Shown here: one piece after another, positions 42,068 to 51,131 of the stretch
Numbering within the stretch: the first letter of the stretch is position 1
How the letters are laid out: every line of letters begins with the position of its first letter
Assembly: GCA_001600175.1 (NCBI GenBank)
Contig: BCJC01000003.1
Coordinates: 62,001-126,000 of the forward strand
Direction of reading: 5' to 3'
DNA: 64,000 nucleotides
Source of the DNA: Erythrobasidium yunnanense
Taxonomy: Eukaryota > Basidiomycota > Cystobasidiomycetes > Erythrobasidiales > Erythrobasidiaceae
Translations under genes and position numbers: made by a program
The notes under the pieces: generated by a model
What the model was told of the DNA's origin: nothing
Seen by the model: the letters and a program-made list of their open reading frames with translations, nothing else
Databases searched by the model: none

Positions 42068-43491
42068 ATGTTTCGTCTAACCTCGAACAGTCTGCTTCCT
42101 ATGACCGCCTGGCTTCGACCTGCGATAGGGATTCGCTTGGCCTCGTCTCAGAGAGCTAAGAAGAAGTTCAAGAAACGCCGCTTCTCACCACTCCCAGAAC
42201 CTCCAATACTCACGCGAGATGTCGTGGGAAATAACCCAGCTGCTGCTATGAGACTGCTCGAAATCAATCCCGAATGGGCGCGTGAGCCTTTGGTCCGTGA
42301 AAGCGTACCTTACGTATCAGCAGCAGTATCGCATCTTATTACGCGCCTCTGCAGACCTATCTAAACAAATACATAATAGCGAGCGGAGGCAAGGCCATTC
42401 CACGGCCCTCGAGAGTTCGTACTAACAGAGACGACTTGGATCAATTCGATAACTGACAATAACACCTCTTCGAATGACCCTCTAGAAGAAGAAGAAGCTC
42501 ATGGTGAAGGGCTCCGTCCGGCGGCACGCGTACAACGATGAACAAGGCCTTGGTAGGCGTAGTCAATTCCGGTATGTTCGCCCGCCGCCAATCCAATCCT
42601 TTCTGATAACCGCTGTTCACACTCGTCAGTGTTGACTTGGGTGTAGATCCCAAGCACAAGGTAGAAGGCGTGGGACATGCCATCAATTTTGATCAGGCTC
42701 TGAAAGCCGCGTGCATACATGCTATGCTACGATTGGTGGAGAGAGACCTCATTGGAAAGGATGGACTTCCGAAAGCACAGCCCGCGAGCGTACACGTGGC
42801 CATCGCACATACCCTCAGTACGGGTCCAGCTGCTCCAGCAGCCGTAGACGATGACGATGGAGACGAGCCAGACGACTTCCTACGAAGAGTCGCTATAATG
42901 GACGAGGATGATCCTTACTACCACTTCCCGTTTGCCATCGGTATGTATGATGACGGACGCACTTCTGTGGAATGGCCATGGGCTGGTCCTGACCCTTACG
43001 ACGAACGTCTTGCCCTCGACGATTTTGGAGACACCGACACGCATAGGGTATCAACTCGGTCCGCAAGTCAGGTGTCAGATGAAGCGAGCTTACAGGTCTC
43101 CGTGAGCGCTGCCGATACCGCCCATGGATTCCTACGCTTCTATAGCTCGTTGACCGGCAAGATGCTCTCAAAGCCGAAGGTAACCAACATGGGACTCAGT
43201 CATGTGTGCTACAATAAGGTGGTCGTCAAGATGGACAAGAAAGCTCTAGGCACCGGAATCGCCAGAACCAAGCGAGAAGCATTGCGAAAAGCTTACGTGA
43301 AGGCGTGGCACCGCATCACGATTGAGGAGCCAGCGATCGCGGAGCAATACAAAGCTAAAGTGGGCGAGACGATGTGGAGAGCCGTGGAAGAGGAAAGCAG
43401 GAAGCTGTGTGAGCCTAGTACATTGGCCAGAGAGCCAGCTCCGCTTGCGGGTGACGGGAGTCCAACTGTAGGCATAGAAGCGGGATTGTGA
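42068..43491 (+). CDS. Helicase-less paralogue of the adjacent DEVH helicase N-terminus
   Basis: Four exons (42068-42304, 42355-42414, 42486-42571, 42630-43491) encode about 414 residues. It begins with a presequence-like segment (MFRLTSNSLLPMTAWLRPAI, then LASSQRAKKKFKKRR). Its body parallels the N-terminal region of the next gene: PLPEPPILTRDVVGNNP, then VDLGVDPKHKVEGVGHAINF, KAACIHAMLRLVERDLIGKD and TGIARTKREALRKAYVKAWH. These blocks have the look of dsRNA-binding-like domains. No helicase motifs follow, and the frame ends at a TGA. It is probably an RNA-binding protein, perhaps mitochondrial, born by partial tandem duplication or split from an ancestral helicase (inference). The exon 2 donor is GTTCGT, a weak site. 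Confidence 0.68.
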
Positions 43492-43660: not shown

Positions 43661-46600
43661 ATGGATTGCGACTTCCAGTTTCATGCGTCGTTGAACCAGC
43701 TCTTGCCTTGTCCGACAACTTTGGTTCTGGCTTCAGTATGCTTCTGAACGATTCTTGCTAGCACATCGAGAGCTTCCTTGCAGTGTGGCAGCTACTGGCA
43801 AGAGGAGCTGCGCTCTCGAAACTCTGGCGGCCTCGACACCAGAGTCATGCTGGACGACCGCCTGCCTCCGCTGCCAGAACCGTACATGTCCGCCAAATAT
43901 GTCGTGCAAAGCAACAGAGAAGCTGCCAAGAGGATGCGAGAGATCTCGACCGACTGGGTTGCTCGACCTCAAGTTCGTTGACCGAAAGCCTGGACGTGCA
44001 AGCTTTCGCGCTGATCCGCAATGGTTGTCTCTTCAATTGTGCGACCTCTTTGAACAGACGTATGTTGCTGGCTATGTTCGAGCTCTCTCCGGCAAGGTGT
44101 GTTAGGCGAAAAGTGAAAAACAGAAAGCAACATGTCTAATCTTCCATGTCTGGGCGCTACAGGAACCCAAATACGTATCTGGCACCTTTGCCTATGTTGA
44201 AGATGGAGCGCCTATCATAACAAGGCGGTCAGTCCGAATAATCGAAACCGGCCCGCATCTTCCGTTGGCTGATTTGTATACACATTGTCCTGCATACAGC
44301 GTACGAGTCGTAGTCGACTTTGCTCATAGTGTGGAAGGTATTGGCGATGCCGAAGACATCGAGAAAGCCGAGAAGATAGCAGCTTTGCACGCGCTTCTCA
44401 AGCTTGTGAATGCCGATCTGATAGACAACAACGGCTTTCCCATCGAAGAGATACCTAATGGCAAAGGAAGCAAAGCTGGCGAGCCGCATCCTGTCCCTGC
44501 ATCCTCCGCAATCCCTCCTTCAACAGCTTTCACATTCCGCAGCCCCGTCGCAGCATCACCCGCGAATGCAAGCTCCCTCACTTCGTTGAACGTAGCGTTG
44601 CCGGAGAGGAACTTCACATCCATGACAGATGGATCAACATATTCCCAGACTCAGCCAATCCAGAAAGACCTCGGATCTGAGAATATCGAGATCCACCATG
44701 CACAACCGCCACAGCCAGCCGTTCCTTCTGGATCATTCACTTCTACTATGCCGTTACCAGCGACATCAGGTGCTGCCAACGGTCATGCGCCAGTTCCAGC
44801 TGGTGCTGCCAAAGCCTCGATCACAGCGGACCCCATGCAACGAGCCATTGAGGAGGTCTCGAAGAGCTTCTCTACACAACGAATCTCGATTAGCGAAGAT
44901 AGCGGCCTTCCGATCTCCAAGCCCAGTCAAGGGGAAAGGAGCGGTGCGCTCTTCAGCGTGGAAACAGCAAGAGAATTTATGGACTACTATTGCAAGAAGT
45001 TTAGCTATGCTAGAGCTGACTTGCAATATCGTTTCGTACCACAAGGCGGAACCACCTTATGCACGGCTTTGCTAGTCATCATGGGCCGCCAGATTGGCAA
45101 AGGAGAAGGCCTTACGAAGCAACAAGCGACATCAAATGCTTATCTGGACGGTTGCGCTTGGCTGGCGAAATGCGATACGAAATTATGGGACGAATACACG
45201 CAACATTGTGCGATCAGAGCATCTCGAGAAAAGGCACCCACGATAGCAAGCATGTCGGCCGTAATCAGGACACCTTCGCTCAGTTTCAAGTTCACCGAAG
45301 CTCTCGACAGCAAGTTGCGCGATGTCATCTGGGAAGCCCGAGAAAGCGAGCTATACAAGAAAGCGGAGGAGCTGGTTCGCAAGGATCACCAGCGTAGGAA
45401 GGAAGTGGCCGAAGCGAAGAGGGCGAGGAAGCAAGCTGGCCAGCAGCCAGATACCGTCCGCAGTGCAGCAGATACATGGCAGATGGACCGCTCGAGCGAG
45501 CTCACCCAAAAGTCGCGCGAGCTTAAAGATCGCTTGGACGGCTACAATAGCAATCCTTCATATGCTAAGATGCGGAAAGATCGAGCAGCACTGCCTGTCT
45601 CGACCTACGCGGATGAGCTGATGGAGCGCATCAACCGCAACTCGGTCCTTGTGATTGTAGGCGTAACACTCCCGACGTCCACACGACAGTGAGCTGATGA
45701 AAGACATAGATGGCCGCAACCGGTTCAGGCAAGACTACGCAACTTCCTCAGATCATCTTGGACCACCACATTTTGAAAGGAGATGGGGCAAAATGCAACA
45801 TTGTCTGTACTCAACCTCGACGGTTGGCTGCTATCAGTGTAGCTCAACGCGTTGCGAACGAGAGATACGAAAACTTGGGTAGTAGTGTCGGCTATCAGGT
45901 CCGCTTCGACAACAAGCCGCCTCAACCCGATGGCTCAATATTATTCTGTACGACTGGTATCTTCCTCCGACGTCTGCAGCTTGGCTTCGAAGACAGCCGA
46001 TCCAGCAACTTTTTGAATTCTGTTACTCACGTCGTGGTCGATGAAGTTCACGAGCGAGATGTGGATGTCGATCTGCTGCTATTTGTTCTGAAAAGACATC
46101 TCGCAGAGCAAAAGAAAGCAGGAAAGGAAGGTCTCAAAATCGTTCTGATGTAAGCGGTACCTTTCTAGCGCAGACCGCTCTGACTGATGCGACACCTGTG
46201 TCCAGGTCCGCCACGATCGACCCTAGCCTTTTCTGCCGCTACTTCAAGAACACTGACAACGGAAAGCCTGCTCCTGCTGTCGAGATACCTGGCCGATCTT
46301 ACCCTGTGCAGAAGTATTACCTTCAAGATGTTCTGCAGATGATCGACATCAACAGGCATGGCTTCGCAAGAGCAGGCTGGGTTCTGGACGATAAGGATGT
46401 GAAAGCCTATTTGACGAGAGAATTGGCTAGTCCCCTTGATCCGAAGACCGTAGCACGAACGGATGATCAGCTTAAGCTTCCTGTCGCACTCATAGCACTT
46501 ACAATCGCATACGTAGCCAAGAAGAGTTCTGCGCAACGTGACGGGCATATACTAGGTGAGGGTCGCTACAGCTTAGATGACAGGCCAGCTAATTTGCAAT

Positions 46601-49600
46601 GCAGTCTTCTTGCCGGGCTTCGATGAGATAAAAGCCGTTCGACGGACTCTTGAGGACGACAAGCAATCTCTGTTGGATGTACCTTTCGAGCGATACGACA
46701 TTCATATCCTACATAGTGCTATCCCTATAGCAGAGCAACAGGCTGTCTTCGCCCCGGCACAGAAAGGAGAGCAACGCATTATTCTGGCTACGAATATTGC
46801 AGAGACTTCGTGAGTCTCAATTTCCGCTTCATCGTCTCCTAAGAGAAAGGCTGACCTTGCCTAGTGTCACTATACCTGACGTGGTCTGCGTCATTGATGT
46901 CGGAAAGTGCAAGGTGAGCTTATGCCTGTTCTAAATATCTTGTCAGCAGACATAATAATTCGCGGACTATGCAGGAAAGGCGCTTCGATCCAGAAAGACG
47001 TATGTCTTCGCTGGTTTCAGCCTTTACAGGTACTTCGAATATGCAGCAAAGAGCCGGCAGAGCGGGTCGGCATCGTGCCGGCGAATATTACTCCCTTGTC
47101 TCCGAACAGCGTCGAGCGAGTCTGCCTGTCAACCAAACTGTCGAGATGAAGAGACTTGACCTCAGCAGCGTGTGAGTAGGCTCATTCGCTGCCGAAACAT
47201 GCTATTCTTACTTTCATTCGTAGGGTCATGCACGTCAAAGGAATGAACATCGAGAACATGGAAGTAGAGGACGTTCTAGAAGCCTGCATCGAGCCGCCGG
47301 AACGAGAGCGAATTCTGGCAGCTATACGCCTCCTAAAGATGGTGGGAGCGTTGGACGATAACGAAACCTTCACTTCGCTTGGACACGTTCTGGTACAGCT
47401 ACCTGTAGAAGCGGCGATAGGGAAGCTATGTTTGCTGGGATGCGTATTCGGCTGTCTAGGTGCGTTTATGACGGACTGCCGGCTGCACGGCTGATTAAGC
47501 CCGCATACATCAGAACAAACACTAGCAATCGCTGCTATCCTTACCAATCGAGACCCATTCATCGCACCCTTCGAGAAACGGGCAAGTCGATGACCTATCT
47601 GTCTTTCGAAATATATTGACTTTCTCATAGGCTCAGGCGAACGAGGCCAAGATGAAGTTCTCGACACAAGGTTTCCGGTCAGACGTCCTGACTGTTCTCA
47701 AAGCCTACAACACCTGGTCGGCGCTTCCCGACAATTGGGAGCGTGGTCGTTTCTGCGACGAGTTCTTCCTCTCTCGCCAAACATTATATGCGATGCAGCA
47801 AATCCAAGATCAGCTTGCGCTGTGCCTTTATCGATCCGGCGTGCTTCAGATAGCAGCGGGTCCTACTCCCATCGTACTACATCGCAGTCGTACGGGACGA
47901 GTAATCGTACCGGCTTTGTTCAACATCAACGGAGAATCTCTGCCTCTCATCACTGCACTCATGTCATCAGCCCTAGCGCCTAACTTCGCTGTACGTCGCA
48001 CTGCTCGTTTATTACGAAGTCCACAGGATCCCGTAAGTCAGAACTGTGTCGCTTCCTCTGCACACTCTCATGATGCTTTACCCAGGGAGCTATGATTCAC
48101 CCGTCTTCTATTCTGGGCAAGCCATCCAAAGCGCACGATAACGAGGGAGTCAAGAATCAGGTGTGCTTAGCGCGTTGCATAGTGAACGTAGACTGACTGC
48201 GTATATGAAGGTCTACGCGTTCGCCGAAGCGACAGTGAACAACACTAAGATGGCCGCAACACGCTCGACGGCGAGAGAGCCCTCTTTGCTTCGCTCGGTG
48301 ACTCTCTTGGACACGTTGGGCCTGCTCTTATTCGGCATCAGCAAGATAGCTCCTACACGAGAAGGGTAAGTCCGCAGACTTTGCAACAATACACATATGT
48401 TTTCAGCCTGACAGTCGTCTGCTCAGCTTCACTTGCGATGGCTGGTTGCCAGTCACCGGAAATGTTGCTCTCCTGGACGACATAGAGCGCTTCCGTCACG
48501 TACTGCATATGTGCATGCTACGAGTATTTCAAGGTCTACGAGTAGCCATCGGCAGTCTTGCTGCCGGCTCCGAAGATGCCGATTCAGATCGAGAGTAAGT
48601 CTTCCAGGACGCCAATGACAGGATTACAAGCTGACATGCTATATAGTATGGCGGACCCGACAAAGGAATTTGACGATCCTCCATTGAGCGGACAGGAATA
48701 TCGCAACCTCAGTCAACTCAGTCGAAACCTCGTCAATGTCTTGAACAGTCATGCTATTGAGCATGGTCTTCCAGCCTACACCAAGATCGCGCGAGAAGCG
48801 TCTGCCGATGATGTAGCAGTAGACACGATTCCGCGTCCCTTCAGGAACAGCGTTCGAGCGAGCGCACCGGGACAAACTACGCGTATTCAGCCCAGGCATA
48901 CAAATGGCACTCCGAGCTATGGGCAAGGTAGTGAATGGGACGCGTGGGGCCAGGACGACGCTCAAGCGGACGTTCCTGCCATGCCTGAAACTCCATCGGA
49001 GACAAGAGCAGCGACTCCGAGCAACCACGCCGCGGCTCCGCCGCCTACAACGACTCAGAATATATTACAAGAGGACGATTGGTCAAGCTATAAGCCTGCA
49101 GCAGATGACAAGGATGCATATGCTCGTCGGGCAGCCATGACGGCCGGGCCTAGCATACGACCCGCGACTCCAGCAAAGCACATGCCTGCGCATGAAGGCG
49201 TCAGAAGCCCAACCACCGGCCAGAACAACGGCTGGGGCCGCTTACCAACGAGTCTACGAGCTTCTGCTGAGATCCAGAACAGAAATTCCAACTCTCCAGA
49301 GCAGGCCAAACCAGCTTCTAGCAGCAATTCAGAAGTGGCTAGACCAGCATCCGCCAAGAAACAAGTGCGCATTATGGAAGAGCCTAAAGAATATGATGCG
49401 CCTGCTGTTTCGGTACAGCCTGCTGCAGTTGCAGAAGATCCTTGGGCAGCTTGGGCACCTACGACCTCGGACAACGATGCATACGATCGCAGACAGCAGA
49501 TCGGAGTCGGTGCAGATGCGATGCGACGGACAAGCGTTGTCGACGTTATGCCAGCTAAAGCTCAGCCGATACCAGCAAGGCCTACATCCAGTTCTGGTGG

Positions 49601-51131
49601 ATCAAAGGGCGGAATGAACTCCACTGGTGACGCGAACAGCAATACGACCAAAGGCTGGGGACAAGTGATCGATGACATTCCGCCTGCTCCTGCCGACATT
49701 CAGAATGGCTGGGATGAGCCAATCCGCCAGGTCCCTGCGCCCTTTTCAGCTCCTATCACAGAATCTTCAGGGCGGCATCCTTCTGTAGACAGTCCGACCA
49801 AGCCTGTTGCTGGATGGGAACCGTATTCAGGCTATTCGTCCAATAGATACCCAATTGGCGGTAACAGAAGTCCAGCAAATTCCACTATTACATCGTCTAA
49901 TACAAGTCGGACTCGCACTGTCAACCCACTCCCGCCGACCGACCTGTCTTCCCAGGCAGAGTTTCCAAATCTGCCGCCGTCTCAGCATCAAATGCCTCAG
50001 CCAGCTGTTGCGGCTCAGCCAGCTCCTGCTGCAAGTGATTGGGACTCTTGGCAGCCTTCTGCTCCGGCTGAAGAGACTGGAGAAGAGGCTTTCAAGCGTC
50101 GAGCTATGAAGACTCGCAGCGGCTCTGTAGCATCTTCTGCCACCCAGACTCGACTTGGATATACACCTCTTTCCGAAGCTCCGCTACCCTCCTCCGAGCC
50201 GCCTGCTGAGAACGGTTGGAACGCTCCGCAGTCTTCGCAGCCTGATAACAGCTATCGGGTTGCGGAAGAGAGCAACTTCGCAATCTCTGGTTCAGGCTGG
50301 GAAGCGCCGTCCGCGCACCCTGAGCGCAACAAAGGCTGGGGAGTTCCCGCTCGCGCCTCCCAGGAGCCTACACGAGCGAAAAGTCCGATGCGTGCACAAA
50401 CTCCTAAGTCAGCTACTACAGCCGCTGCTACTGCTACCAACGAGGATGACGGCTGGGGAAGCTATACGCCAGCAAAGTCAGCTGTCAATGAGGGCGAAGC
50501 GGCTTATCAAAGACGCATTCAGATGTCGGGCGGCAGAGGCATGCCTTATGCTGGCAATCAAGACAACTACATGCGCCAGCAGCCAGCACCACCCTTATCG
50601 CCTATCCGACGCCCTGACTCGCGTGCATCGACTATTCAGCGACCCGATTCGCGAGCATCAATGCATTCTAGAGTCTACTCCAGATCAGACTCGCCTGCGC
50701 CCAGTCATATATCAAGATCGAAGGGCGAGATCTCTATCAAGGGCATAGCTTCTCGATCGCGCAAACGAGCTGAGACACCCATCACATCTACACCAAGTAC
50801 ACCAAGAACACCTACGAAGAGTACCGTGAACGGTGCTCCAACGCCTACTCCTATTCCAGCTCAAATCACCGAAGTCGTTATCGACTGGAAGGCGATTGAA
50901 GCTATTACCGGGAAGATGGGCGGTCTCGCTCTGACTCCCGACAGTCCAGCTCAGACTGTTAAAGAAGAGCCTAGCTCTTTCTCCTATTCAGCTATACACT
51001 CTCCTACTATTATTAGGCAGCCTGAACTGCCTGCTACCAACGGTCACTTCGACGAAGCAAACTTTGCAAGTCGAAGAAAGGTCTCTTCTCCTCCTCCTCC
51101 GCCGCAAAACGGGTATATCGGATTGGAGTAA
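43661..51131 (+). CDS. DEVH/DEAH-box RNA helicase with W-rich repeat tail
   Basis: Sixteen exons are proposed, encoding about 2208 residues: 43661-43735, 43784-43972, 44058-44096, 44163-45656, 45710-46149, 46206-46555, 46605-46809, 46865-46913, 46975-47171, 47224-47459, 47514-47581, 47631-48032, 48086-48160, 48211-48365, 48427-48594 and 48647-51131. N-terminal dsRBD-like domains precede an RHA/DHX-type core: motif I AATGSGKTTQ (about 600), THVVVDEVHERD (DEVH rather than DEAH), LMSATID, ILVFLPG, ILATNIAETS and MQQRAGRAGRHRAGEYY, then HA2/OB-fold (APNFAVRRTARLLRSPQDP). The exon 11/12 intron (47582-47630) is GC-AG. From about residue 1382 an 827-residue disordered tail carries WG/GW motifs and four related modules. 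The first exon and the tail junction are the least certain parts. Confidence 0.82.
48931..50525 (+). repeat. Degenerate W-rich protein repeat in helicase tail
   Basis: The tail encodes many WG/GW/WD pairs (EWDAWGQDD, GWGRL, GWGQV, GWDEP, GWEPY, NGWNAP, GWGVP). Four copies of a longer module occur at about 49075-49140 (DDWSSYKPAADDKDAYARR), 49435-49500 (DPWAAWAPTTSDNDAYDRR), 50035-50110 (SDWDSWQP...EEAFKRR) and 50445-50525 (DDGWGSYTP...EAAYQRR). The pattern is acidic-W-x2-aromatic-x-P, an acidic spacer, then A-aromatic-x-RR. The nucleotide sequences have diverged, so the module is old and conserved as protein. Confidence 0.75.

Follow-up and report, generated by a model that had tools for sequence, protein, structure and literature searches.

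What a fungal RNA helicase may gain from a long C-terminal tail studded with tryptophans is the question raised by the gene at 43899-51131, on the forward (+) strand of the 64,000-nucleotide stretch of Erythrobasidium yunnanense DNA that was analysed here, and to which we refer as the window: the gene encodes a DEVH-box helicase core that is followed by a tail of 827 residues, in which tryptophan-glycine dipeptides (WG/GW) are interleaved with four copies of a composite module. An earlier note, made from the letters of the window, had taken this tail for an interaction platform of the Argonaute-hook type. On balance, we favour a broader reading, in which a lineage-specific, multivalent tryptophan docking tail has been added to a known DExH helicase; the identity of the partner is weighed below.

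The tail is part of the helicase gene. Our gene model comprises 14 exons and 13 introns and encodes 2,173 codons; its last exon (48647..51131) is joined to the core across a 52-nucleotide GT-AG intron (48595-48646) with the frame kept, and is a single open frame, where the three frames hold 39, 1 and 13 stops, the lone stop of the open frame being the terminal one. In order to compare this exon with its relatives, we have used orthologs from a search with the core (amino acids, aa, 440-1420), where 7,981 candidates were scored, 4,037 matched and 120 were listed; these 120 proteins are 44-53% identical over the aligned core, are 1,197-1,779 aa long and come from basidiomycetes wherever the organism is named. 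Alignment rows were available for 118 of the 120 (P0017 and P0025 were unusable), with P0035 aligned at the N terminus only; all 120 served for motif counts, 112 for C-terminal length and 84 for the tryptophan content of the last 12 residues. The C-terminal region of the orthologs consists of an acidic linker and a helix with the pattern LSxxEVxDLDxLTxxVVxxLN (12 aligned sequences, consensus of 19), and this conserved terminal helix is found here at aa 1361-1384 (48690..48761). Conserved helix and tail are thus read one after the other, with no stop between them, in the frame of the last exon, which makes the tail part of the helicase; the length of 827 residues given in the earlier note holds good for the stretch from MADPTK onwards (aa 1347-2173, window 48648-51128), in frame with the core. 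The unusual length of the C-terminal stretch (847 residues after the RVFEG-type element, where the 112 parsed orthologs have a median of 144.5 and never more than 382) could be taken as a sign of a separate gene, which the earlier note had allowed for, or of a fusion made by gene prediction, but the conserved terminal helix lies upstream of the tail in the same uninterrupted frame, which rules out a separate tail gene and leaves us with next to no credence for either. A simple intron scan places no intron in the last exon, but it detects only seven of 12 modelled introns and averages 0.83 in shuffled tails, so that the scan alone is weak.

The core to which this tail is joined is, as the earlier note had it, canonical: the ordinary DExH set of motifs I, Ia, II, III, V and VI is present (GSGKTT, TQPRR, DEVH, SAT, TNIAETS and QRAGRAGR), and the Pfam families DEAD, Helicase_C and HA2_C match above their cut-offs, while dsrm, HA2_N and OB match below them. 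Against solved structures, a profile of 19 orthologs scores 616 bits with DHX36, 581 with RNA helicase A, 579 with MLE and 541 with DHX29; because these scores lie so close together (541-616 bits), the protein, a DExH RNA helicase of basidiomycetes that falls within the RHA/DHX36/DHX29 group, is not placed with any single member. Basidiomycete helicases of the DHX29/57 type and of the DHX9 type are named in the excerpted text of a study of Ustilago maydis (PMC12511879).

The tail itself, in which no Pfam family finds a match, is rich in alanine, proline and serine and contains 16 tryptophans, nine of which take part in 13 WG/GW dipeptides, a number that is reached in none of 20,000 composition-preserving shuffles of the tail. 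The module, written as W..[YW].P.{4,14}A[YF].RR, occurs four times, with its tryptophan at aa 1491, 1612, 1811 and 1949: EDDWSSYKPAADDKDAYARRAAM (49071..49139), EDPWAAWAPTTSDNDAYDRRQQI (49434..49502), ASDWDSWQPSAPAEETGEEAFKRRAMK (50031..50111) and DDGWGSYTPAKSAVNEGEAAYQRRIQM (50445..50525). None of the 20,000 shuffles contains even one module; its second half alone, A[YF].RR, occurs at least once in 1.7% of them and at least twice in 0.02%. Both the WG/GW clustering and the four-copy module that had been pointed out earlier are thereby confirmed in number, and both lie above every shuffle. The motif scan also returns a half module of the form W-x2-WG (WDAWG, 48936..48950), two GWG motifs (49230..49238 and 49653..49661), the GW of GWEPY (49812..49817) and four GW-x2-P motifs, namely GWDEP (49707..49721), GWNAP (50214..50228), GWEAP (50295..50309) and GWGVP (50334..50348). 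Four of the eight GW thus have a proline three residues past the tryptophan, again a count that no shuffle out of 20,000 reaches; given eight GW and a proline content of 12.3%, however, the binomial probability is 0.011, so that the excess is mostly that of GW itself, and the case for GW-x2-P as a second repeat does not go beyond a suggestion. The simpler pattern W-x2-P shows no enrichment in the tail, its observed count being reached by 2,639 of the 20,000 shuffles.

The copies of the module are 26-48% identical to one another as protein and 44-58% as DNA, and share an invariant W, P, A, R and R; the first invariant arginine is written, from copy 1 to copy 4, as CGT, CGC, CGT and AGA (three different codons), and the second as CGG, AGA, CGA and CGC (four different codons). 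A recent tandem duplication is ruled out by this low DNA identity and by the differing arginine codons, and the pattern suggests, without the weight of proof at four copies only, that the copies are old and that their residues are kept by constraint on the protein. The disorder of the tail, also claimed in the earlier note, is borne out by an AlphaFold2 prediction from the single sequence, where 784 of the 827 residues have a predicted local distance difference test (pLDDT) score below 50 and the whole mean is 37.3; the only long helix in the tail is the conserved one at aa 1361-1384, with block means of 65-77. A stretch EFPNL (49959-49973), in the context SSQAEFPNLPPS, presumably resembles the FPxL-type motifs of messenger ribonucleoprotein (mRNP) proteins. 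An endocytic reading, for which DPW motifs were considered, was set aside, with one DPW only in the tail.

The earlier note had proposed that the module be sought in the DEAH helicases of other basidiomycetes, and would have counted its absence from related species against the idea; it is present in none of the 120 listed orthologs, although even the nearest of these share no more than about 50% identity with the core. The A[YF]xRR half occurs in one of them, as AYARR at the extreme end of P0031, where, judged by eye against P0021, it is probably an intron read-through of an unspliced prediction; the W..[YW].P half occurs in four Rhizoctonia proteins only, outside their tails. A search for homologs of the tail (proteins of about 455-1447 aa) returned none at E ≤ 0.001 among 7,992 scored, with a sensitivity limited by low-complexity crowding; a protein search with the module region gave five candidates and none at E ≤ 10; in the PDB, the module matched nothing but two designed AlphaRep proteins, both weakly (E 3.4 and 5.7); and the search for paralogs of the tail in its own genome found only the tail itself among three scored candidates. 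As a DNA pattern, [DE]-A-[YF]-x-RR shows no excess (267 matches, versus 353 for the control read backwards), and the spellings AYxRR, DAYxRR, EAYxRR, WxxYxP and WxxWxP were found in no paper of the literature searched. The composite module, not found in these sources, which do not extend to close relatives, appears to be lineage-specific among the proteins searched.

Older traces of a tryptophan contact are seen at the very end of the orthologs. Fifty of the 84 parsed sequences have a tryptophan within their last 12 residues, where 500 shuffles average 14.6 and do not exceed 26, although the sequences are related and the number of independent cases is thereby overstated; this points to a W contact at the C terminus as an older feature of the family. 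Many of these proteins (e.g. P0003, P0006, P0044 and P0060) end in W-R(-R), and some others in another aromatic residue. In the ortholog tails as a whole (all 120, with the last 100 residues taken where the helix was not parsed), WG/GW stands at 56 observed versus 52.1 expected for the composition, and GW-x2-P, tried as a family-wide motif, was discarded at three occurrences versus 2.4 by shuffling. It is plausible, on this comparison, that an ancestral C-terminal W contact was elaborated to an array in the lineage of E. yunnanense.

In the mechanism that we propose, the tail would have grown in this lineage to about 790 residues past the conserved terminal helix and gained an array that consists of the module in four copies and of GW motifs, half of them GW-x2-P; the array would act as a multivalent docking platform, with its tryptophans entering hydrophobic pockets of an mRNP partner, for which the Ccr4-Not subunit Not9 and Argonaute are the candidates, while the A-[YF]-x-RR half may provide a second, basic-aromatic contact. 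Docking would bring the helicase to structured RNA, or the partner to structured RNA. Three points weigh against this proposal: no module-bearing relative was found by the tail, module-region and own-genome searches or among the 120 listed orthologs; the W-motif array does not go back to the ancestor of the family, because WG/GW in the orthologs is at chance; and four copies of the module are few for the codon argument.

The partner that the earlier note had in mind is Argonaute, with WG/GW docking in the tryptophan pockets of PIWI and coupling the helicase to RNA interference (RNAi), as reported for the plant helicase SDE3. The note had held that a genome without Argonaute would speak against this idea; Piwi-domain exons are encoded at three loci (C1:3802638, C2:2877600 and C2:2964859), with PAZ near the C1 locus and near C2:2964859, and are accompanied by RNase III domains, two of which lie next to each other (C7:39522/40133), and by RNA-dependent RNA polymerase at two loci, so that this objection fails. 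The tail also has what is asked of a GW protein, several WG/GW in a disordered segment. Among human proteins, AGO3 and AGO2 align with the Argonaute piece from C1 at 132.2 and 131.6 bits, respectively; of the AGO2 positions that we take to line the tryptophan pockets (F587, P590, V591, L650, F653, Y654, F659, K660, R688, L694 and Y698), eight of the ten other than F587 are kept or conservatively replaced in the C1 piece (P590, L650, F653, Y654F, K660, R688K, L694I and Y698F), but V591T and F659R are not, and F587 is faced by an asparagine when the alignment with AGO3 is used. The Argonaute at C2:2877600 retains F587, P590, F653, L694 and R688K, but carries V591T, L650I, Y654V, F659I, K660N and Y698I. 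The three Argonaute loci are diverged, and of the two that were aligned, C1 retains more of the presumed pocket residues. From the literature, the title of a cited study on the interaction of RNA helicase A with the RNA-induced silencing complex (in the reference list of PMC12388510) speaks for a hook; the variability of fungal Argonaute pockets, reported in the excerpt of a structural survey (PMC12477606), speaks against it, as does the retention of RHA-group helicases in U. maydis, which is stated to lack RNAi (PMC12511879, in excerpt). Cryptococcus deuterogattii is a similar case: according to the part of PMC4778953 consulted, it is without AGO1, AGO2 and GWO1, and its GWC1 is lost or truncated, yet its helicase ortholog P0112 (1,687 aa) persists, with a WG-rich, module-free tail that contains six tryptophans, four of them in WG/GW context. 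Because this species has kept P0112 without these RNAi genes, the helicase family is not tied to RNAi; it is, however, a single lineage and a single natural test, in which RNAi may have been lost too recently for the tail to have been affected, other Cryptococcus and Kwoniella species being apparently RNAi-proficient in the excerpt of PMC11185503. What stands of the Argonaute-hook idea is the disordered W-motif platform and an Argonaute in the genome; no tie of the tail to Argonaute in particular was found, and we consider such a hook doubtful.

Recruitment of the deadenylase machinery, where the W motifs would bind Not9 of Ccr4-Not or, as we presume could also be the case, PAN3, and would link unwinding to the turnover of mRNA or to the control of translation, is a possibility that we hold tentatively. 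A Not9-family gene is encoded in the genome, and the excerpts of PMC12819147 describe Not9 as having two tryptophan pockets and a peptide groove, with many of the interacting residues invariant in eukaryotes, and predict that the DFW motif (DFWIP) of Schizosaccharomyces pombe Puf3 occupies these pockets; the tail motifs DDWSSYKP and DPWAAWAP resemble this motif by eye, and the case for Not9 is one of resemblance only. Contacts with the ribosome are reported for related fungal DExH helicases, as YLR419W binds the 40S subunit near h16 (PMC10997966, in excerpt) and ribosomal proteins are among the interactors of MSP-8 in Neurospora (PMC11809369, likewise), but a second RHA-type gene of the genome (C4:163149-164829), in which RWD is matched below threshold (19.2 bits, cut-off 22.8), is the likelier counterpart of YLR419W, rather than the window helicase. 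A UBA-like stretch suspected by eye in this C4 paralog was dropped, having no Pfam match. The Not9 pockets are at least as good a candidate as Argonaute. A more specific proposal, that the composite docking motif evolved independently, interleaved with GW, and recruits Argonaute and/or Ccr4-Not directly to the helicase, so that a motor unrelated to SDE3 would carry a hook analogous to that of SDE3, seems to us unlikely. The tail could also be a low-constraint extension of biased composition with no specific partner, its repeats having arisen by chance and slippage, as its lineage-specificity among the proteins searched, its composition and its predicted disorder would allow; but a module count that 20,000 shuffles do not reach, and invariant residues that are written in different codons in copies of low DNA identity, make this distinctly improbable. 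A docking tail remains the reading that we prefer, with Ccr4-Not, Argonaute or another protein as its possible partner.

The N-terminal part of the gene is less certain. The ATG at 43661, from which the earlier note began the gene, is followed by a stop after 28 codons when read without an intron, and the model begins at 43899; in exon 1 (43899..44096), the stretch around FEQTYVAGYVRALSGKEPKY (FEQTYVAGY...) matches the NPKG..NY region (NPKGVIANY) of the orthologs in the alignment, while the start codon, and with it the N terminus, is uncertain. Exons 2-13 (44163..48594) encode the region that resembles a double-stranded RNA-binding domain (dsRBD) and the helicase core, with inner introns of 49-61 nucleotides; twelve introns of the model are GT-AG, and the one at 47582-47630, in the helicase core, is best read as GC-AG, which is probable, since the GT-AG alternative loses the conserved frame by eye. 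Of the N-terminal dsRBD-like domains announced in the earlier note, one is recovered below the Pfam cut-off (aa 342-400, 44988..45164; PF00035, E 6.7e-4, 20.6 bits versus 23), and the second comes down to a very weak Dicer_dimer match at aa 122-161 (E 0.061); a precomputed PF00035 is carried by many of the 120 listed orthologs. Upstream, an open frame at 42610-43491 (+) contains a segment of the helicase's N-terminal region in diverged form (48 aa, 48% identity, E 8e-10), with a weak dsrm match (E 0.043) and no motor, and is perhaps a stand-alone dsRBD-like paralog.

Compared with known systems, the window helicase is closest to the other basidiomycete DExH helicases, some of which are annotated as DHX36-like or as “nuclear DNA helicase II”: they share the core (44-53% identical), the DEVH box, the terminal helix and a tail that looks disordered and often has W-R as its end, but have no module and a C-terminal stretch of at most 382 residues, versus 847 here. 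With DHX36, RNA helicase A (DHX9), MLE and DHX29, the likeness is that of the core, and the tail lies outside the matches. The disordered region of S. pombe Puf3 offers, by eye, a W motif with acidic and proline neighbours for Not9, in a protein that is unrelated to the window helicase. GW182/TNRC6 and the Cryptococcus proteins Gwo1, which is complexed with Ago1, and Gwc1 are GW proteins and are not helicases; Gwo1 and Gwc1 are lost or truncated together with AGO1 in C. deuterogattii, while a helicase of the window type is retained, so that this species offers a natural test, its Argonaute-serving GW proteins being gone or truncated and its helicase kept. Plant SDE3, finally, is likewise an RNA helicase, described with an Argonaute-binding function, but its hook has been shown experimentally, whereas the tail described here is known from its sequence; in addition, SDE3 is, as we understand it, a superfamily 1 helicase of the Upf1/MOV10 type, and the window core is DExH, with DHX36 and DHX9 as its best solved relatives. 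SDE3 is, to our knowledge, the sole helicase with a silencing or decay hook of its own; if the tail binds Argonaute or Ccr4-Not, the window helicase would represent a second, independent origin of this arrangement, and its four-copy module could serve directly as a peptide in the search for a new pocket.

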